The position numbers and the translations under genes are program-made. Positions 2,506 to 43,996 of a stretch of 51,054 bases of DNA are shown here, one piece after another; the stretch's first letter is position 1; each line of letters starts with the position of its first letter. The stretch is from assembly GCA_021603905.1 (NCBI GenBank), contig BQIU01000023.1, forward strand, positions 1 through 51,054. The letters are read 5' to 3'. Under the pieces are notes generated by a model. It searched no databases. It saw nothing but the letters and a program-made list of their open reading frames with translations, and was not told where the DNA came from. Source of the stretch: Nitrospirales bacterium. Lineage in GTDB: Bacteria > Nitrospirota > Nitrospiria > Nitrospirales > UBA8639.

Positions 2506-5500
2506 GACATCGAGTTCTCGTCATCCCATGAACGTCGGCCCCTTGGCCTGGATGGTTCATAATCGCATCACACCCAACCTGTTCATGCTGTGCTTATTAT
2601 TGGGTGGACTGTTTATGGCGACGCAAATCAAACAGGAAGTGTTTCCGGAATTTGAAGAAGATACGGTCACCGTCCTCGTTCCCTTTCCGGGAGCTAGTCC
2701 GCAAGAGGTGGAAGAGGGAATCATTTTGGCCATTGAAGAAGCCGTTCGAAATCTCGACGGAGTTGAAGAAGTCGTGTCAACGGCATCAGAAGATCAAGCC
2801 TCGGTCGTGGTGGAACTGCAGGGAGATTCAAATTATCAAAAAACCTATCAGGATATCCAACAAGCCATTGGACGGATTATCACCTTCCCGGAAGATGCCG
2901 AAGAGCCGCAGTTCACCCTGGACACTCGTCGACGTGAAGTGATCAACCTCCAGTTATTCGGGGATGTCTCCGAATGGGATATACGTGAAGCCGCCGAAGA
3001 GGTTCGCGACCGCCTGCTTCAAGAACCTGAAATAACACAAGTCGACTTACTCGGGGCTCGTGCTTATGAAATTCACATTGAAATTTCACAAGAAGATCTG
3101 AGAGCCTACGGTTTAACGTTAGAGCAAATTGCACAAATTATTTCAGCAACGGCGCTCGATCGATCCGGAGGTAGCGTTGATACCTCAAGCGGAGAAATCT
3201 TACTTCGCGTTCAAGAACGGCGCGATTGGGCTTCCGAATTTGGAACCATTCCGATCATCGCCAATCAAGCCGGCACCCTCCTGCGACTCAGCGACATCGC
3301 CATGGTCTCCGAAGGATTTGAAGAAAGTGAAATCTATGCCACCTACGATGGCCAACGTGCGATAGGAATCGGAATCTTTCGGGTCGGCGATCAAACACCC
3401 ATTGCCGTGGCGAACAAAGTTCGATCGGCGATGAACCTGATCATCGAAGATCTTCCTCCAACGATTCAGTATGCCGTTCAAAAGGACCGGTCAGAAATCT
3501 ATCAACAACGACTGACCCTCCTCCTCAAAAATGGCTTTCTAGGATTACTGTTTGTATTGGCGGTTCTCACATTATTCCTTGAGTATAAACTGGCCTTCTG
3601 GGTCACGGTCGGAATTCCCACATCATTCCTGGGTGCCCTATTGTTCCTCCCGATGCTCTCGGTTTCGATTAATATGATTTCGCTATTCGCGATAATCATC
3701 GGCCTGGGAATCGTGGTGGATGATGCCATTATTGCCGGGGAAAACATCTACGAATATCGGGAACGTGGACATAGTCTTATTGAAGCGGCGATTCAAGGCG
3801 CACGCGACATTGCACTCCCTATTAGCTTTAGTATCCTCACCAATATTGTGGCGTTTCTTCCACTCATGTTTGTACCCGGAGCCTTTGGGAAAATCTGGGC
3901 GGTCATCCCCGCAGTGGTGTCGACTGCCTTTATTATTTCTTGGGTTGAAGCGCTATTTATTCTTCCCTCACACTTAGCCCATGGAAGTACGAACCCAAGC
4001 AACAGGCTCGGGAATGGACTCCATCATTTCCAACAACAATTCAGCCAAACATTTACCCGTTTCATTGAAGGCACATACGGACCGTTTCTGCGTCGCGCGA
4101 TTCACAATCGATATCTCAGTGTCTCCCTGGGCATTGCGGTGTTTATCGTTGTTCTCGCGTATCCCATTAGCGGACGGATGGGATTTATTTTAATGCCGAA
4201 AGTTGAAGCAGACTTTGCAAATGCCACCGCCGTCGTACCATTCGGTAGTCCTTCTCATGAAATACAACGGGTTCGAGATACGCTTGTGCATTCCGCCCAG
4301 GAGGTCATTCGAAACCACAAAGGACAAGACGTCGCAACAGGCATCTTTACCTTAGTTCAAAAAAATATAATCGAAGTCCAAGTCTATTTACCGCCACCCG
4401 ATGCCCGACCGCTCAGTACCAATACTGTCACGCAATTGTGGAGAGAGAATACGCCAGATATTGCCGGCGTCGAATACGTTCGTTTTGAGTCTGATAGTGG
4501 AGGGCCAGGTCGAGGGCCTTCGATTAGTGTTGAACTGAGCCATCGAGACATTGACAAGCTCGATCTGGCCAGCGGTCACCTGGCTGAACGCCTTAGTGAA
4601 TTTTCAAGCGTGAAAGATGTTGATGACGGGTATTCTCCAGGCAAACCTCAGCTTAATTTTCAAATTAACGAAGAAGCAAGAAGCTTGGGTCTCACGGCTC
4701 AAGAAATTGGGAGGCAAGTTCGTCATGCCTTTTACGGCTCTCAGGCTCTTCGACAACAGCGGGGACGTAACGAAATTAAAGTGCTCGTTCGATTGCCTCA
4801 GTCAGAACGGACGAGCGAATATCATGTCGAAAATCTGATTATCCGAACGCCCGCAGGTCGCGAAGTTCCCTTATATCAGGTCGCCACGGTCGTGAAAGAT
4901 CGAGCGTTTCGAGAAATTACTCGCCGGGATGGACATCGCACGGTCACGGTCACCGCTAACATTCAGCCAATCAAAGAAACCAATCTCGTCTTGAACACGC
5001 TGAAGAAAGAAATTCTTCCTCAGCTACTCAAAGAGTACCCAGGACTTAATTACAGCTTTGAGGGCCGACGAGCAGATTTACGGGATGCCCTGAATAGTTT
5101 TCTCTATAGCACCACCCTTGCTCTCATCATTATCTACGTTATGCTAGCCATTCCATTTCGTAGCTATGTTCAGCCAGCGATTGTCATGATGGCCATTCCA
5201 TTCGGGTTGGTTGGAGCCGTCATTGGACATATGCTGATGGGATATAGCATCAGCATTATTAGCATGATGGGCATTATTGCGCTCATGGGAGTCGTGGTGA
5301 ATGACTCGCTCATTATGATTGACTACGCGAACATTAAGCGACAAGAAGGGGTGAGTCCTATCAAGGCCATCAGTCAAGCAGGCATTCGGCGATTTCGTCC
5401 TATCCTTCTGACTACCTTAAGTACCTTTGGCGGGCTGGCCCCAATGATTTTTGAGACTTCTCGCCAAGCAAGATTTATGATACCGATGGCGATTTCGCTT

Positions 5501-34513: not shown

Positions 34514-35260
34514 CTACTGCCCGAGATACCAGCCGATACCATGCCGATCTAAGAAACTGGTAATCATCGTCACAGAATTAATGTACAACATAACCCCGAT
34601 TGTCACCATCAAGACGCCACTGACCATTGAAATAGCCCCAAGATAATGACGGACTTTTTTAAAGTGTGTCAGGAAACTATCGACCCCAAAAGCCGTGAGA
34701 AAAAACGGGAGGCCCAACCCCACGGAATAGGACGTTAATAGCACGATTCCATCTTGCATCGACTCCGTCGTGCTTGCATAAGCCAGGATCCCACCCAATA
34801 CAGGACCAACACAGGGAGTCCACCCTGCAGCGAACGCCGTCCCCACCAGAAAAGATCCAATATACCCCAACGGACGCTTTTCAAAATGCAGTAGCTTACG
34901 TTCTGTCATAAGAAACGACAATTTGAGTATACCCATGAGGTAGAGCCCGAACACCGCAATGAGCACTCCGCCAATTTTTCGGATCAGGTCTTGATATTGA
35001 TACAACATTTGCCCCATAAAACTAGCCGAGGCTCCAAACGCAATAAATACACTAGAGAATCCGGCAATAAAGAGCAGCGAATTCACCATAATGACTTTTC
35101 GAAATCGTTCCCGCTCCTGAACGTTGGAGAGTTCCTCGACGGATAAGCCGGTGATGTAAGACAAATAAGAAGGGACCAGTGGTAGAACACAGGGAGAAAT
35201 GAACGAAAGGAAACCCGCACTAAAGGCGGCCAAGATGGAGACTTGATTAAAGGAGTCCAT
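34514..35260 (-). CDS. ccdA: Cytochrome c biogenesis protein CcdA
   Basis: 248 residues, six membrane helices. The two redox cysteines are C24 in FISPCVLPLVPSYLSYITG and C150 in GWTPCVGPVLGGILAYA, the standard CcdA pair that passes electrons from cytoplasmic thioredoxin to the periplasm. Start at 35260 overlaps the upstream TlpA-like gene by 14 nt on the minus strand, so the two are coupled. It should feed reductant to that thioredoxin lipoprotein and probably to CcmG. Members of the same pathway lie 1 kb away on the plus strand. Confidence 0.95.
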   Translation of the reverse strand: MDSFNQVSILAAFSAGFLSFISPCVLPLVPSYLSYITGLSVEELSNVQERERFRKVIMVNSLLFIAGFSSVFIAFGASASFMGQMLYQYQDLIRKIGGVLIAVFGLYLMGILKLSFLMTERKLLHFEKRPLGYIGSFLVGTAFAAGWTPCVGPVLGGILAYASTTESMQDGIVLLTSYSVGLGLPFFLTAFGVDSFLTHFKKVRHYLGAISMVSGVLMVTIGVMLYINSVTMITSFLDRHGIGWYLGQ

Positions 35261-35876
35261 CGTAGTCCAAAGCTGCAGGAGGATCGAGAAGGGCTTGAAT
35301 CATTTTTTTGGCTTCTTGACCATTCCAGTCTCGAGCGCCGAAGACTCGATGTTGAATAATGCCTTTCCGGTCAATGACATAACTGATCGGGAGCGTCCGA
35401 GCTCCGTAGGCAAGACCCACTTCATATTCCGGATCATGCAAAATGGGAAAGGTCAATCCCATGGCTTCCTGAAAGGGTTTCGTGACTTCTATTCCTTGAG
35501 CATCCACCGAAACAGCCACAATTTCCAGCCCGTGACTGTGCATCTCCCGATATAGGGCTTCCATGGCAGGCATTTCTACTCGACAGGGACCACACCAGGT
35601 TGCCCAAAAATTGAGCAAGATGACTTTGCCACTAAAATCTGACAAGCTAACTAACTTTCCCTCCATATTCTTCAATGTGAAGGGAGGTGAAGGCGATCCG
35701 ATGGTTGGCCATCCCCGCTTGACCTGTAACTGAGAATCATTCGAAGACACTTCCGAAAGCCCCGAGGAATATCCTGAATCACAACCCATGAGAGTAGTCA
35801 TTACCCACATCACACCCACCAAAAGCACTCTGATGCGAGAGGACTTACAAGAAGCGACAGTGCCGAGAATTAACAT
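35247..35876 (-). CDS. TlpA/ResA-like thioredoxin lipoprotein
   Basis: 209 residues from the ATG at 35876; a TTG at 35885 in the same frame is possible but less likely. The N-terminus has a lipobox-like L-M-G-C32 after a hydrophobic stretch (VLLVGVMWVMTTLMGC), so it should be anchored in the membrane and face the periplasm. The thioredoxin domain has WCGPC (C95, C98) in LLNFWATWCGPCRVEMPA, and TLPISYVIDRKG carries the cis-proline. It probably reduces apocytochrome c or other periplasmic disulfides with electrons from the overlapping CcdA. Confidence 0.9.
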   Translation of the reverse strand: MLILGTVASCKSSRIRVLLVGVMWVMTTLMGCDSGYSSGLSEVSSNDSQLQVKRGWPTIGSPSPPFTLKNMEGKLVSLSDFSGKVILLNFWATWCGPCRVEMPAMEALYREMHSHGLEIVAVSVDAQGIEVTKPFQEAMGLTFPILHDPEYEVGLAYGARTLPISYVIDRKGIIQHRVFGARDWNGQEAKKMIQALLDPPAALDYDGLL

Positions 35877-36233
35877 AAGTATCAACGTGTTTTATCGTTA
35901 AGAATGAATTGAGGCTCTTGCACTCATCATCGGCTGAAGCTAAAACGATCAGAGAAAACTAGTGGTCTGATCAAGAGTTCCATTCAATATAAATCTAGCA
36001 AACAAGGCCGTCAATAAGCACTAAATTACATTGTACCACACTACTGGCATTTGGAGATTGGCTCCGAACAAGTTTCTGATTTGTAGACATGGCATAAGTC
36101 GGCTACGTAGGCTATAGTGCATCCGGATAATCTGCGGCCATACTAGTGGCCTCACCTACAGCTCATTCAACACATGAAAGGTCCTCCTTAGCGAAACGGC
36201 AAAAAGCCGCACGTAATTGTCTGCACACACATA
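35877..36233. other. Divergent intergenic region between the TlpA-like gene and ccmA
   Basis: About 357 nt, AT-rich, likely holding divergent promoters for the two cytochrome c maturation transcripts. A sequence GTCGGCTACGTAGGCTATAG near 36092-36113 recalls the CTATAGC repeat ends but is too degenerate to call. No gene seen. Confidence 0.5.
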
Positions 36234-36902
36234 ATGGTTATCCAGGCATTCCAACTCAGTAAATCATTTGGAAACTATCGAATTTTTGAGGATCTCTCCT
36301 TTGAGATTCCAGCGGGCGAGTGCTTTGCCCTATTCGGATCAAATGGGGCCGGGAAAACCACACTTTTACGAATTTTAGCAACACTGGTCAGACCGACGGA
36401 TGGTCGCTTTACCGTCCTAGGCAATGATGGTGTCACGGGAAAAGAATCTGTCCGACAGGCCACCATGCTTCTCGCCCATGGCTCCCACTTATACGATGAC
36501 CTCGATGCACAGGAAAACCTACGCTTTGCGATGGCGATGCGAGGCCTGGACCCAACTCCTCGAGAGTTGAAATTATCGTTGGATCAAGTCAGTCTTGGAG
36601 CATTCAGCGAAATGAAGACACGAAATTTTTCGGCAGGCATGAAACGTCGTCTTGCCTTAGCCAAAGTGATCTTGGCTAAACCCCAAGTCCTCCTCTTAGA
36701 CGAACCCTACAATGCCTTGGATGAGGGGGGAGTCCAGGTGACCAACCACATTATTTGTGAAGTCACTCAACGAGAGGGTGTCGTCGTCATGACCACACAT
36801 GATCGAGACAAAGCCAACCTCGTTGCTCATCGAACCGGCTTGCTCCATCACGGCATTCTGACATTTTCCCGGACAGACCACATAGCTCATGACATTTCTT
36901 AG
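36234..36902 (+). CDS. ccmA: Haem exporter ATP-binding protein CcmA
   Basis: 222 residues of the ABC ATPase type. Walker A is GSNGAGKTT (35-43), the signature is NFSAGMKRRLALAKV and Walker B is VLLLDEPYNALDE, followed by the switch histidine in MTTHDRDK. Works with CcmB and CcmC to release holo-CcmE. It is the first gene of a plus-strand operon; the next gene overlaps by 14 nt. No clear ribosome site before the ATG at 36234. Confidence 0.95.
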   Translation: MVIQAFQLSKSFGNYRIFEDLSFEIPAGECFALFGSNGAGKTTLLRILATLVRPTDGRFTVLGNDGVTGKESVRQATMLLAHGSHLYDDLDAQENLRFAMAMRGLDPTPRELKLSLDQVSLGAFSEMKTRNFSAGMKRRLALAKVILAKPQVLLLDEPYNALDEGGVQVTNHIICEVTQREGVVVMTTHDRDKANLVAHRTGLLHHGILTFSRTDHIAHDIS

Positions 36903-37566
36903 AGTCATTCAATGGGTGGTCTGGAAAGACCTCATTAGCGAAATGCGGAGTCGGGAGACTCTGTCTTCTATGCTGTTCTTCGCACTCATCGTGATTCTTG
37001 TTTTCAGTTTTAGCTTTGCGATGGATCAAGATGCCGCCCAACAACTCATCGCCGGCATTATTTGGGTCTCATTTGCGTTTACCGGCATAATTGGGTTGGG
37101 AAAATCCTTTTCGGCAGAATTACAGAACGACGCACTTGAATATCTACAGATGAGCCCGACCCCAAAAGGAGCCATCTACCTTGGGAAGATGCTGGGGAAT
37201 TTGTTGTTTATGCTGGTCGTCGAAGTCATGCTGTTTCCCTTGTTTGTCCTTTTCTTCAATCTGAATATTGTTGAAGAAATTGGCCTTCTTCTGTTAATAT
37301 TTTTCTTAGCAACATTGGGACTTTCAGCTGTTGGGACGCTGTTTTCGGCACTCACAGTTCAAATTCGTGCCAGGGAAGTTATGCTCCCGGTCTTACTACT
37401 CCCGTTGGCCATTCCAGTGATGATTGCTGCCGTCGAATCCACACGAGGCGCACTCAATGCTCAGCCTTTGGCTCTGTATTTCCACTGGATAGAATTACTG
37501 ACGATTTTTGACGTCATCTTCACGGTCGTGTCATTTTGGTTATTTGAGTTGATTCTGGATTCATAG
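36889..37566 (+). CDS. ccmB: Haem exporter permease CcmB
   Basis: 225 residues, six membrane helices. The N-terminal VVWKDLISEMRSRETLSSML and FSFAMD are typical, as is IWVSFAFTGIIGLGKSFSAE, with the charged E-L-Q-N-D-A-L-E segment following. Forms the membrane part of the CcmAB transporter. It overlaps ccmA by 14 nt and is followed by ccmC after 78 nt. Confidence 0.94.
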   Translation: MTFLRVIQWVVWKDLISEMRSRETLSSMLFFALIVILVFSFSFAMDQDAAQQLIAGIIWVSFAFTGIIGLGKSFSAELQNDALEYLQMSPTPKGAIYLGKMLGNLLFMLVVEVMLFPLFVLFFNLNIVEEIGLLLLIFFLATLGLSAVGTLFSALTVQIRAREVMLPVLLLPLAIPVMIAAVESTRGALNAQPLALYFHWIELLTIFDVIFTVVSFWLFELILDS

Positions 37567-37644: not shown

Positions 37645-38370
37645 ATGATGAATCGAATAATTAGACGGATTCAACGGTTTAAAGGGTGGTTTGGTGCCGC
37701 TGCCGCTCTTTCCATTTTTTATGGACTGTACTTAGGCCTATTCGACTCTCCTCCCGATTACTACCAGGGAGAAGTCGTGCGGATTATGTATGTGCATGTT
37801 CCCCTTGCTCATACCTCGCTCCTGGCCTATGGGTCACTTTTTCTGGGAAGCCTCTGGTACCTGTGGAAACGAGACCCTCTCGTTGACAACATGTGCCAAG
37901 CTGCTGCAGGCCTGACCGTCATTTTCACGACATTGTCGCTGATCACTGGTGCTATTTGGGCGAAGCCCACCTGGAATACCTGGTGGACGTGGGACCCGAA
38001 ACTTGTTTCATTTGCTATCCTGCTGCTCATTGCGTCAGGATATCTTATGCTACGAACTTTTGTGGAAGACCCTGATAAAGAAGGACGATATGCTGCAGTC
38101 ATGGCCATTGTCGGTGGCGTCGACTTACCGATTATTTACTTTTCAGCTGAGTGGTGGAGATCTCTTCATCAGCCGCTGTCAATATCCATGCGAGGGGTGA
38201 GTATGACTGGGGATATTCTCTTGCCCCTCTCAATCATGAGCCTTGGACTCAATTTGTTATTTATCTACATGCTCATGGTTCGAACACAAATGTTATACTT
38301 AACCAATCTGCTGCAGGCCAAAAAAGGACGCCTTCTCAGCCAAGTGCATCTCACCCAAACCAGCTCATGA
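37645..38370 (+). CDS. ccmC: Haem handling protein CcmC
   Basis: 241 residues with six membrane helices. The tryptophan-rich haem motif WNTWWTWDPKL (110-120) and the conserved H51 in MYVHVPLAH are present; a second histidine lies in WWRSLHQP. CcmC presents haem to CcmE at the periplasmic face. The stop overlaps the next gene as ATGA. Confidence 0.96.
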   Translation: MMNRIIRRIQRFKGWFGAAAALSIFYGLYLGLFDSPPDYYQGEVVRIMYVHVPLAHTSLLAYGSLFLGSLWYLWKRDPLVDNMCQAAAGLTVIFTTLSLITGAIWAKPTWNTWWTWDPKLVSFAILLLIASGYLMLRTFVEDPDKEGRYAAVMAIVGGVDLPIIYFSAEWWRSLHQPLSISMRGVSMTGDILLPLSIMSLGLNLLFIYMLMVRTQMLYLTNLLQAKKGRLLSQVHLTQTSS

Positions 38371-38873
38371 CTGGGTTTTATCTGAGATGGGCAGGCGTGA
38401 TCGTGATAGCGATCATATTGGCAGTGCTTGCCACACAAAATTATCAAGATCATTTGGCCAGTGTGATCCCAGAGTCCGTCATCACAGGCAATCATTCTCA
38501 AGCAACAGTTCGAGTCCAAGGAATGGTCGGCAGCGGCAGCTTGACCGGAAGCCCCGAAGAAGGGCATGCTGAGTTTGAATTATTGGGGGAAACGAAGAGT
38601 CTAAAAGTCCAGTATCAGGGACCACCTCCGGAAAACCTTCGTGAATTAAAGACACTGATTCTGATTGGGCGTTGGGACCCAGAAGTTCAGGTATTTCGAG
38701 CGCACGAAACGGCACTCGTTACGAATTATGGATTTGTAGCCAGTGCTTATATCATTGCGTTTTTGGTTCTTGTCGCGAGCGTGTTTACGATGAGCCGGAA
38801 GGTAGCATTTTTGTTTCAGGAGATTAAAGACTCTAAACTCTATGAACCCGAGTTAGATACCCATGTGGACTAA
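38367..38873 (+). CDS. CcmE-like OB-fold protein fused to a CcmD-like tail
   Basis: 168 residues from the ATG overlapping the ccmC stop. An N-terminal anchor (LRWAGVIVIAIILAVLATQN) is followed by an OB-fold region that aligns with CcmE: VRVQGMVGSGSL, AEFELLGETKSLKVQYQGPP and ILIGRW...VFRAHETALV. Where CcmE has the haem-binding H-x-x-x-Y, this protein reads ALVTNYGF, so the histidine is absent. A second membrane helix follows (FVASAYIIAFLVLVASVFTM) with a basic/acidic cytoplasmic tail, in the style of the small protein CcmD. It occupies the usual ccmD position between ccmC and ccmE, so I infer a structural CcmD role with a non-haem OB domain. Confidence 0.75.
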   Translation: MTGFYLRWAGVIVIAIILAVLATQNYQDHLASVIPESVITGNHSQATVRVQGMVGSGSLTGSPEEGHAEFELLGETKSLKVQYQGPPPENLRELKTLILIGRWDPEVQVFRAHETALVTNYGFVASAYIIAFLVLVASVFTMSRKVAFLFQEIKDSKLYEPELDTHVD

Positions 38874-39318
38874 AGGTAGAAAAACCAGTTTGATTCTTAG
38901 CATCCTCCTTGTCGCAGGAGCCCTGGGCTACTTAGCTTTAGGAAACTTTGGCGAGAACCTTGTCTATTTCGTGACGCCGTCAGAAGTTCGGGCATTTTCA
39001 GCGGAGCAATCCCAGAAAAAAATCCGCGTGGCAGGTATGGTTGTCAAAAAAAGTATCAAAACTCAAGCCGATCCCGTGGGACTCACGTTTCAACTCACCG
39101 ATGGAGAGGCCACTATTCCTGTGGTGTTTCAAGGCATACCTCCGGACCTCTTTAAAGAAGGGCAAGGAGCGGTTGCAGAAGGGCACTGGAGGTCCGACAA
39201 GGTCTTTCATTCTAAGATGATTATGGCCAAGCACTCTGAAGACTATATGCCGATCGAGATGAAGCGAGCCGGTGTCGAATTACCAAAAAAGGATTTCATG
39301 AAGACCCTCTCTCCTTAA
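38863..39318 (+). CDS. ccmE: Haem chaperone CcmE
   Basis: 151 residues. A single N-terminal anchor (TSLILSILLVAGALGYLALG) precedes the OB-fold (KIRVAGMVVKKSIK, LTFQLTDGEATIPVVFQGIP). The covalent haem site is H124 with Y128 in MAKHSEDYMP, the standard bacterial H-x-x-x-Y form. CcmE carries haem from CcmC to CcmF. It overlaps the preceding OB-fold gene by 11 nt and is clearly paralogous to it. Confidence 0.96.
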   Translation: MWTKGRKTSLILSILLVAGALGYLALGNFGENLVYFVTPSEVRAFSAEQSQKKIRVAGMVVKKSIKTQADPVGLTFQLTDGEATIPVVFQGIPPDLFKEGQGAVAEGHWRSDKVFHSKMIMAKHSEDYMPIEMKRAGVELPKKDFMKTLSP

Positions 39319-39494: not shown

Positions 39495-41444
39495 ATGATC
39501 ATTGAGATTGGCCATTTTTCTGTTGTTGTTGCCTGGGTCCTTACCCTTTTGGGCATTGGCTCATCCATCGCCGCACTCCGGTCGCGAAACGCAGACTGGG
39601 TTCGTGTAGGACGTATTGCGGTCACCCTGACGTTCGGTTTGTTGTTTATCGGCATGGCTTCTCTTGTGTATTCATTTCTCATGAGAGATTTTTCTGTCCT
39701 CTACGTTGCCAATAATTCAAATTCGAAATTGCCATTTTTCTATACCGTCGCCGCAGTGTGGGGCGGGCATGAAGGCTCCTTACTCCTTTGGGCCTTTATT
39801 CTTTCCTCATTTAGCACTCTCGCCGTCTGGCTGCATTGGCGAACCCAGCCAACCATCATGCCGTACCTGATCGCGGTAGAATCAGCCGTCATGCTTGGGT
39901 TTCTTTCTCTGATCGTGTTTCTTTCCAGTCCGTTTGCCAGATTGGTTCCAACCCCGCTTGACGGCAAAGACCTGAATCCCTTGCTCCAAGATCCGGCCAT
40001 GGTCATGCATCCCCCAATGCTGTACATGGGATACGTGGGTTTTTCCATTCCCTTTTCCTTTGCGATGGCTGCCCTTTTTTCAGGCCGTCTCGGGGAAGAA
40101 TGGATTAAAGTCACACAGCGGTGGACCATTTTTGCATGGCTCTGCCTGACGACTGGCATCTTACTTGGCGGATACTGGGCCTATTACGAATTAGGGTGGG
40201 GAGGTTATTGGGGATGGGATCCAGTCGAGAACGCATCGTTTATGCCATGGTTGGTGGGAACAGCGTATCTTCACTCAGTCCTCGTGCAAGAAAAACGAAA
40301 GATGTTCAAAGTCTGGAACTTGCTTTTGATCATCGTGACATTTTCGCTCTCGCTCATTGGGACCTTTTTGGTCAGAAGTGGCGTCCTCACGTCTGTCCAT
40401 ACCTTTGCGACCGACCCTGAGCGGGGTCTGTATATTCTCATTTTTATTACGATCATTATTGGTACCGCCTTTGGCGCCTTAATCATTCAATCAAAAAAAC
40501 TCAAGAGTCAGATCGAAATGGACTCGTTTGTTTCACGAGAATCCATCTTTCTTTTCAATAATTTGTTTTTTCTGGTCGCCGCGGCCACAGTGTTTCTCGG
40601 CACGCTCTATCCCCTCATGGTTGAAACATTCCAAGGGGGAAAAGTGACGGTTGGTCCTCCTTATTACAACGCTGTCTTCATGCCAATTGCTCTAGGGCTT
40701 CTCTTCCTCATGGGCATCGGCCCATATATTCCATGGCGCAAGGCCTCCGCGAGTAATTTAAAGAAAAACTTCCTTGTTCCGCTTATTGCTGGGGTAGTGA
40801 CGATGGTTCTCTTATTCATCTCTGGCATCCACAGCTTGTACGCACTGGCTGGCGGGTTTGTTGTCGGATTTTCCGGGTCGGCAATACTTCTCGATTTCGG
40901 AAAAATTTCTAAACTGTATGCCAATCGTGAACATGTCAATATTTTCAAAGGTTTCTTGAAGGCCTTTTCAGCCAATCAACGCCGATATTCAAGTCTCATC
41001 ACACACCTTGGCGTCCTGATCTTGGTGATTGGAATTATTGCCTCAACGATCTATCAAACCGAAAAAGTTGTCTCCATGAAAGTTGGAGACACATTTTCCA
41101 TTGCCGATTACGAGATGAAACTCCTGAATATCCATGAAGTCGAGGGGAAAAATTGGAAAGCCCAAGAGGGTGTGTTTGAAGTCACTCAAGACAATGAAGT
41201 CATCACGAAGCTCAGACCACAGAAACGTGTGTACACAGCCTCACAGAGTCCGACAACAGAGTCAGCAATTCATGCCATCAATATGGGGCACATCTTTCTG
41301 ACCATGCCGGATGTCTCTGCAGATGGTGTGGCCGTCGCTCGAGGCGTGATTAATCCCCTCATCCTGTGGGTTTGGGGCGGAGGTGGTATTATGGGCTTAG
41401 GCGTTTTATTAAATATTTTTCGACCACGAAGACGGGAAGAATGA
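39495..41444 (+). CDS. ccmF: Haem lyase subunit CcmF
   Basis: 649 residues with about 14-15 membrane helices. WGGHEGSLLLW (89-99) and the tryptophan-rich WGGYWGWDPVENASF (235-249) are the haem-handling motifs; MHPPMLYMGYVGFSIPFSFA and FLVRSGVLTSVHTFA are further family signatures. CcmF, with CcmH and CcmI, attaches haem to apocytochrome c. A 176-nt gap separates it from ccmE, with only a weak hairpin (CCTAC...GTAGG) visible. Overlaps ccmG as ATGA. Confidence 0.97.
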   Translation: MIIEIGHFSVVVAWVLTLLGIGSSIAALRSRNADWVRVGRIAVTLTFGLLFIGMASLVYSFLMRDFSVLYVANNSNSKLPFFYTVAAVWGGHEGSLLLWAFILSSFSTLAVWLHWRTQPTIMPYLIAVESAVMLGFLSLIVFLSSPFARLVPTPLDGKDLNPLLQDPAMVMHPPMLYMGYVGFSIPFSFAMAALFSGRLGEEWIKVTQRWTIFAWLCLTTGILLGGYWAYYELGWGGYWGWDPVENASFMPWLVGTAYLHSVLVQEKRKMFKVWNLLLIIVTFSLSLIGTFLVRSGVLTSVHTFATDPERGLYILIFITIIIGTAFGALIIQSKKLKSQIEMDSFVSRESIFLFNNLFFLVAAATVFLGTLYPLMVETFQGGKVTVGPPYYNAVFMPIALGLLFLMGIGPYIPWRKASASNLKKNFLVPLIAGVVTMVLLFISGIHSLYALAGGFVVGFSGSAILLDFGKISKLYANREHVNIFKGFLKAFSANQRRYSSLITHLGVLILVIGIIASTIYQTEKVVSMKVGDTFSIADYEMKLLNIHEVEGKNWKAQEGVFEVTQDNEVITKLRPQKRVYTASQSPTTESAIHAINMGHIFLTMPDVSADGVAVARGVINPLILWVWGGGGIMGLGVLLNIFRPRRREE

Positions 41445-43630: not shown

Positions 43631-43996
43631 TTATGCCGCTTGCTTCTTTTCTTCAGAAACGGGCCTTTGAAGATGAGAGAGATTATAGACCTCATCAGGT
43701 GTTAGGCCATCGAAGGTCGAATGAGGCCGTGTGTGATTGTAATGGGTGAGCCATGCACCAATGTGAGTCCGAGCCTGAGAGCCATTCTCCAAGGCATTCA
43801 AATACACACACTCATATTTCAAGCTCCGCCACAACCGTTCGATGAACACATTATCCATCCATCGGCCTTTTTCATCCATTGAGATCTTGATTCCGTGTTC
43901 TTTGAGCACCGAGGTGAATTCATCCGACGTAAATTGGGATCCTTGATCCGTGTTGAAGATGTCTGGCACGCCATACAGAGCCAACGCCTCCTCCAA
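43631..43996 (-). pseudogene. IS3-family transposase orfB, C-terminal fragment
   Basis: 121 codons covering the second half of the DDE integrase core: FNTDQGSQFTSDEF with the second aspartate, and MDNVFIERLWRSLKYECVYL with the catalytic glutamate, then the closing HYNHTRPHSTFDGLTPDEVY. The first aspartate and the N-terminal part are missing, so it is inactive. Confidence 0.92.

Follow-up and report, generated by a model that had tools for sequence, protein, structure and literature searches.

A conserved ccm gene of Nitrospiria that joins a CcmE-like OB domain to a CcmD-like tail

In the stretch of DNA analysed in the present study (the window, 51,054 nucleotides from a 'Nitrospirales bacterium', a name that NCBI places in the class Nitrospiria), the gene between ccmC and ccmE encodes in a single chain a membrane anchor, a CcmE-like OB domain that lacks the haem-binding histidine residue, and a CcmD-like end made up of a membrane helix and a charged tail. 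Judged by sequence comparison, it is very probably this lineage's version of the System I subunit CcmD, extended at the N terminus by the anchor and OB domain of a duplicated CcmE. The fusion is real and conserved, belongs to a well-known machine and is apparently undescribed. No such fusion protein was described in the literature searched on CcmE, CcmD and System I, as far as the available text of those sources extends, with most subscription-journal papers and preprints outside the scope of the search. In the CcmH–CcmI fusion of E. coli System I, subunits of the system are likewise joined in one protein, as reported in the available text of PMC3601427; however, those are other subunits, each the sole copy, whereas here the CcmE half duplicates a protein that is still present in its normal form, and lacks the haem-binding residue. 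The fusion bears on an open question of System I, i.e. how CcmD frees holo-CcmE from CcmC, and its gene is a marker of the ccm operon in most of the families that were sampled from the class.

The gene and its CcmE-like half

The fusion gene (38367–38873, + strand; 168 amino acids plus stop) lies in an operon with the order ccmA (36234–36902), ccmB (36889–37566), ccmC (37645–38370), fusion, ccmE (38863–39318), ccmF (39495–41444), a thioredoxin-like ccmG, ccmH and a gene for a TPR protein, the genes with coordinates all being on the + strand, so that the System I neighbours ccmA, B, C, E, F and H are all present at the locus. The ccmA, ccmB, ccmC and ccmF genes were identified by HMM matches, and CcmC has the WWD motif as well as equivalents of D47, Q50 and R55 (in DYYQGEVVR). 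The ccmE gene encodes an ordinary haem chaperone (Pfam E value 1.4e-32) with H124 and, four residues on, Y128, the histidine having been numbered correctly in the preliminary description of this DNA. The ATG of the fusion shares bases with the stop codon of ccmC (ATGA), and its 3′ end overlaps the start of ccmE. The open reading frame thus agrees with the initial claim of a gene in the ccmD position that carries an anchor, an OB domain, a C-terminal helix and a charged tail.

The predicted N-terminal membrane anchor (approximately residues 9–28; 38391–38450, +) was placed by a helix in a low-confidence model, by hydropathy, with a peak seen in one family member, and by conservation; residues R7 and W8 directly before it are invariant in an alignment of 24 family relatives (A1, in which the row of locus L038 begins at an inner ATG). 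The OB domain occupies residues 42–114 (38490–38708, +) and includes the stretch E89-N-L-R92-E93 (38631–38645, +), which aligns with the CcmC-docking stretch D101-L-F-R104-E105 of E. coli CcmE. The CcmD-like tail follows at residues 118–162 (38718–38852, +), as a helix that begins at NYGF and then a charged tail with the end SKLYEPE. AlphaFold2, given four sequences (the window's and those of loci L022–L024), returned a model of low confidence (mean pLDDT 48.4, pTM 0.31) that is informative for secondary structure alone, namely a helix at residues 2–33, five strands and a helix at residues 121–157. The topology would be that of an N-in anchor, a periplasmic OB domain, the CcmD helix and a C-in tail.

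The OB half was assessed with curated HMMs, profiles and a tree. The Pfam CcmE model matched residues 42–114 of the fusion with an E value of 1.3e-11 and 45.2 bits (cut-off 24.6), and all 24 members of A1 matched it at E <= 1 (best 1.9e-14), while the NCBIfam CcmE equivalog cut-off was missed, the best score being 34.2 bits against 126. The A1 profile found E. coli CcmE in the PDB as 8ce8_E (E 1.4e-7) and 1sr3 (E 1.8e-7). A single pairwise BLASTP comparison of the window's fusion with the adjacent CcmE gave 28% identity over 96 amino acids (E 3e-9), and across 57 loci the OB-core identity between fusion and same-locus CcmE was 18–42%, with a median of 35%. In a tree of 95 of the 161 aligned rows (39 of the 57 fusions and 56 CcmEs; 69 columns), the 39 fusion OB domains formed a single clade (100/100) on a long branch; because of the few columns and long branches, their exact origin among the CcmEs is not placed by this tree. 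The passed Pfam cut-off, the PDB matches and the tree all agree with the earlier proposal that the OB part is paralogous to CcmE. Compared with CcmE itself (PF03100; 1sr3, 8ce8), the fusion has the same anchor and OB domain and keeps the R, G, F, G and G core positions and the D/E-x-x-R-E docking stretch, but it has a second membrane helix in place of the haem-binding His/Cys…Tyr loop, and its OB domains form the separate clade just described.

The loss of the haem residue was read from an alignment of 57 fusions, all different in sequence, and 104 CcmE rows. Loci L002, L019 and L021–L024 were left out as duplicates, and 99 CcmE rows remain without the repeats L075, L076, L082 and L083 and the partial second copy L080. 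At the haem column these 99 distinct CcmEs have His in 92 cases and Cys in seven, whereas the fusions have Pro (32), Thr (14), Asn (nine), Ser (one) and His (one), and the sole His is followed by Phe rather than Tyr. The junction segment contains at least one His or Cys in 15 of the 57. As the haem-binding His/Cys-x-x-x-Tyr motif is absent, the fusion is a CcmE paralogue and not a functional CcmE. The preliminary description had the H-x-x-x-Y motif replaced by ALVTNYGF; the histidine is indeed gone, but ALVTNYGF is better read as a junction than as a mutated motif, namely the boundary at which CcmE sequence gives way to the CcmD-like part (compare the start of the short ccmD of family f19, below). 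The fusion event would then have swapped CcmE's haem-binding C-terminal loop for CcmD. Separately, seven loci of families f31 and f34 (L110–L116) have a CcmE gene flanked by a ccmG-like gene and ccmF, with Cys for the haem His in all seven CcmEs; ccmC was not found in the stretch.

These counts also bear on whether the OB domain, through other residues, holds haem non-covalently as a further stop on its way from CcmC to CcmE, a reading that we regard as very improbable. Such a domain would be near the haem of CcmC, an AF2Complex model places Tyr17 of CcmD near the haem site (PMC8975832, as far as its available text goes), and all 57 fusions keep an aromatic residue (Tyr or Phe; alignment column 174) close to where the fused CcmD part begins. 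Against this, neither the single His at the haem column nor the 15 fusions with a His or Cys in the junction amount to a conserved ligand, and NMR located no haem site on the core of the E. coli CcmE protein, according to the portion of PMC6204919 available.

The C-terminal half and CcmD

Like CcmD (PF04995, TIGR03141, TIGR04391), the fusion sits in the slot between ccmC and ccmE and ends in one helix followed by a charged tail. In all 35 loci of the window's family (f1, the window included) ccmC lies directly 5′ with the ATGA overlap and ccmE is the next ccm gene, and the same ccmC–fusion–ccmE order holds in 22/22 loci from other families. Unlike CcmD, the fusion has 168 amino acids, starts with an anchor and an OB domain, and scores below the curated cut-offs. 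CcmD proteins do vary in size (37 and 100 amino acids are the examples quoted in PMC12077264), and the alignment of CcmD from 44 organisms in that source took in a 'Nitrospira' class, as far as the text available to us describes it.

The Pfam CcmD model matched residues 123–154 with an E value of 0.044 and 14.3 bits (cut-off 25.6), and TIGR03141 gave 12 bits (cut-off 25.95), so a CcmD search misses the fusion. Among the 24 members of A1, ten matched Pfam CcmD at E <= 1 (best 0.0051) and six matched TIGR03141 (best 0.00069); the unrelated membrane family TIGR04554 matched four, at a level comparable to the CcmD models (best 0.00043). Of ten tails from other families compared with Pfam, three had a CcmD-type match below the cut-off and seven had none, one of the seven fitting an unrelated family, and of two f1 tails compared with NCBIfam one had a sub-cut-off CcmD match and the other none. 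For members other than the window's fusion, the tail was placed below the CcmD cut-offs on the basis of E values.

Genome-wide searches for CcmD, which among fusion-bearing families covered 35 f1 genomes, found no protein over the Pfam cut-off in any of the 35, whereas all six genomes searched from f3/g12 have one. In the window's own genome (90.8% complete) the tail is the only Pfam CcmD match at E <= 1; in some f1 genomes, sub-cut-off matches elsewhere beat the tail (in G014, for example, a 205-amino-acid frame with E 0.001).

The tail was connected to CcmD by way of family f19, three genomes of which have a short gene, (M)KSNYEFIAAAYG..., between ccmC and ccmE. This short ccmD starts where the tail of the fusion starts (LVTNYGFVASAY...), i.e. 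at the OB/tail junction, and in all three the sole in-frame start codon is a GTG at the junction, giving the protein start (M)KSNYEFIAAAY. Two of the three were recovered unaided by the A1 profile (domain E 0.008 and 0.009), and in a profile–profile comparison (hhalign) the 57 tails matched the three f19 proteins with a probability of 95.2% and an E value of 2.9e-8, whereas none of 16 control membrane windows from CcmB, CcmC and CcmF exceeded 3.0%. The fusion tail is thus homologous to the f19 short ccmD. As to the identity of the f19 proteins, two of them scored 24.2 and 23.2 bits with the NCBIfam family CcmD_alt_fam (TIGR04391, cut-off 24), one of the two thus passing; in Pfam the pair matched CcmD below the cut-off (E 0.0035 and 0.00018), and the match to LapA_dom was of similar strength (0.0024 and 0.00053). 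These f19 genes (loci L106–L108) are only 53–55 amino acids long from the GTG, overlap the end of ccmC and start at NYEFIAAAY, and are easily missed in annotation.

A comparison with the ordinary CcmD of family f3 gave a different result, the hhalign probability being 0.5% for the tail and 0.7% for the f19 ccmD; the control windows gave the f3 CcmD as much as 5.9%, so this profile has little power. The initial assignment of the last helix to CcmD has indirect support from the match to the f19 ccmD, but none from the curated cut-offs or the f3 profile.

A diverged CcmE paralogue that has gained a new membrane helix, in a lineage that has lost CcmD as archaea have, would also account for the sub-cut-off scores and for the failure of the f3 CcmD to match the tail, and archaeal System I works without CcmD (PMC9084895, in the part of the source available). 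We consider this reading improbable, because the tail resembles the short ccmD that f19 has in this slot so far above the controls, because the tail is the only Pfam CcmD match at E <= 1 in its own genome, and because the loci read have either the fusion or a short ccmD and never both. Separate short ccmD genes do occur in relatives (f3, f14 and f19), an observation that in the preliminary description would have spoken against a fused CcmD, yet in the loci read they occur only instead of the fusion. The assignment of the tail to CcmD is thus supported indirectly, by the slot, by there being no recognizable CcmD elsewhere in f1 and by the bridge through f19.

CcmC-docking charges and a possible role

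In E. coli, CcmE binds CcmC via R73, D101 and E105, whereas R104 of CcmE and Q49 of CcmC act in release, as described in the available part of PMC6204919. Aligning the A1 profile with the PDB structures equates R73, D101, R104 and E105 with G61, E89, R92 and E93 of the window's fusion. Across the fusions the D101 column is Asp or Glu in 57/57, the R104 column is Arg in 57/57 and the E105 column is Glu or Asp in 56/57. The R73 column is not kept, with Lys or Arg in 15 of the 57, and the CcmE proteins of this lineage mostly have Thr or Val there. Of 12 conserved charged CcmE positions, the fusion keeps all three docking positions and one of the other nine (Fisher p 0.018), a contrast that is weak (p 0.11) in the OB core alone, with the replaced haem loop left out.

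On the CcmC side, the partners D47, Q50 and R55 are present in all 56 fusion-bearing loci with the position read; since they are present in f3 and f19 as well, they do not discriminate. At the column of E. coli Q49, Tyr occupies 55 of the 56 fusion-bearing loci in which the position was read, Phe 3/3 from f19 and Gln 30/33 f3 rows, a pattern that follows phylogeny as well and for that reason was not used as evidence.

CcmD binds CcmC and is required for the release of holo-CcmE (PMC11868835; PMC6204919; PMC12077264), and its role has been called enigmatic (PMC6204919), in the text of these sources that was available. A CcmD-like tail would hold the OB domain on CcmC, and so the haem-free OB domain would stay beside CcmC at all times. 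Given the docking charges kept, the position of CcmE on CcmC seems the likeliest one for the OB domain to occupy or share, and to this placement we give an even chance. The charges likewise make plausible the location at the CcmC/CcmE interface that the preliminary description proposed. Taken as a whole, the explanation that we favour, with somewhat better than even confidence, is that the fusion is a CcmD with a tethered, haem-free CcmE mimic at CcmC's CcmE site. In that position the OB domain could cap the site between rounds without taking haem, and it could compete with loaded CcmE and so help holo-CcmE to leave. Its likeliest job would be to fill the CcmC site while CcmE is away, to compete with loaded CcmE and to aid the departure of holo-CcmE, a tentative proposal to which we give less than an even chance. 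Still more speculative, and rather doubtful, is a built-in product-release device in which the haem-free copy of the carrier, tethered to CcmC by way of CcmD, would displace the loosening holo-CcmE from CcmC and block its rebinding. A CcmE copy without the haem histidine but with the docking charges lets docking and haem loading be separated.

The main rival reading is that the OB domain is a scaffold, which recruits or steers CcmE or stabilizes CcmABC without using CcmC's CcmE site. CcmD is presumed to stabilize the ABC complex, according to the available text of PMC11868835, and the fusion evolves faster than CcmE, as a structural part might (dN/dS approximately 0.09 against 0.015, in two comparisons). 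In addition, the cryo-EM structure from E. coli, as reported in the part of PMC10457321 available, shows CcmE in contact only with CcmB, which suggests that the site on CcmC may not be the stable one, while the AlphaFold2 model in the same source places CcmE over CcmC. However, charges at D101, R104 and E105 kept in 57, 57 and 56 of 57 fusions, while most other conserved charged positions are lost, would not be expected of a mere scaffold, and we judge this reading unlikely, at about one chance in four.

Distribution, history and selection

All distribution counts given here are within this phylum. By a single-sequence search the same gene is present in 33 of the 35 further genomes from the window's own genus and family and in 0/23 genomes from other families of the order. 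With the A1 profile, a search of 395 genomes of the phylum gave full-length or nearly full-length matches in families f1, f5–f13 and f21, the last of which belongs to another class. Three close relatives, found by a contig scan, are MAGs of the Nitrospirales bacteria NPIRA02, NPIRA04 and OFTM51. No relatives were found in viral contigs or plasmids.

The class was sampled with 246 genomes, the window's own included, taking the fusion at E <= 1e-20 and CcmC at E <= 1e-15. By these thresholds 72 genomes have the fusion and 155 have CcmC, and all 72 also have CcmC. Outside f3 the fusion is present in every one of the 71 CcmC-bearing genomes (39/39 in f1 and 32/32 in other families), and the f1 genomes without it (G022, G026 and G094) lacked CcmC in the same search as well. 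In f3 it is present in one (G446) of 84 CcmC-bearing genomes, and ordinary short CcmD was found in all 30 f3 loci read (L041–L070, the best-scoring CcmE loci). These data show that the two-domain gene between ccmC and ccmE, for which the preliminary description had suggested looking in related genomes, is a conserved trait of the lineage. The simplest history would be that the fusion arose once, early in the class, and that most of f3 later had its ccm operon replaced.

The f3 genome G446 has an operon of the class type (locus L117; ccmA–B–C–fusion–E–F), unlike the 83 other CcmC-bearing f3 genomes, and it may be a remnant, have been transferred or stem from admixture in the assembly. Second CcmE-like matches in f3 genomes were considered as possible detached OB domains; the one read, at locus L071, is a protein of 148 amino acids outside any ccm cluster in the stretch read, scored 23.5 bits against the Pfam CcmE cut-off of 24.6 and was also a weak match to a general OB family.

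The dN/dS of the fusion against five relatives was 0.084–0.100 in 5/5 comparisons, of which only the two nearest pairs have unsaturated dS (0.22 and 1.06, with dN/dS values of 0.084 and 0.095). For ccmC the ratio was 0.020–0.026 (four pairs) and for ccmE 0.015 (two pairs), indicating that the fusion is under purifying selection, yet evolves faster than its neighbours.

Some minor features of the loci were also recorded. In G014 an IS481-like transposase gene (2879–4006 of locus L039) lies between the fusion and ccmE, both of which are still open, and in some of the other g4 genomes extra, smaller gaps occur at this point. In the window, a fragment of an integrase-core (rve_3) transposase gene (43631–43996, − strand) lies just 3′ of the ccm operon, and genes for DsbD_TM/CcdA-like and thioredoxin-like proteins (34514–35885, − strand) lie upstream of ccmA in divergent orientation, a pair that perhaps supplies reductant.
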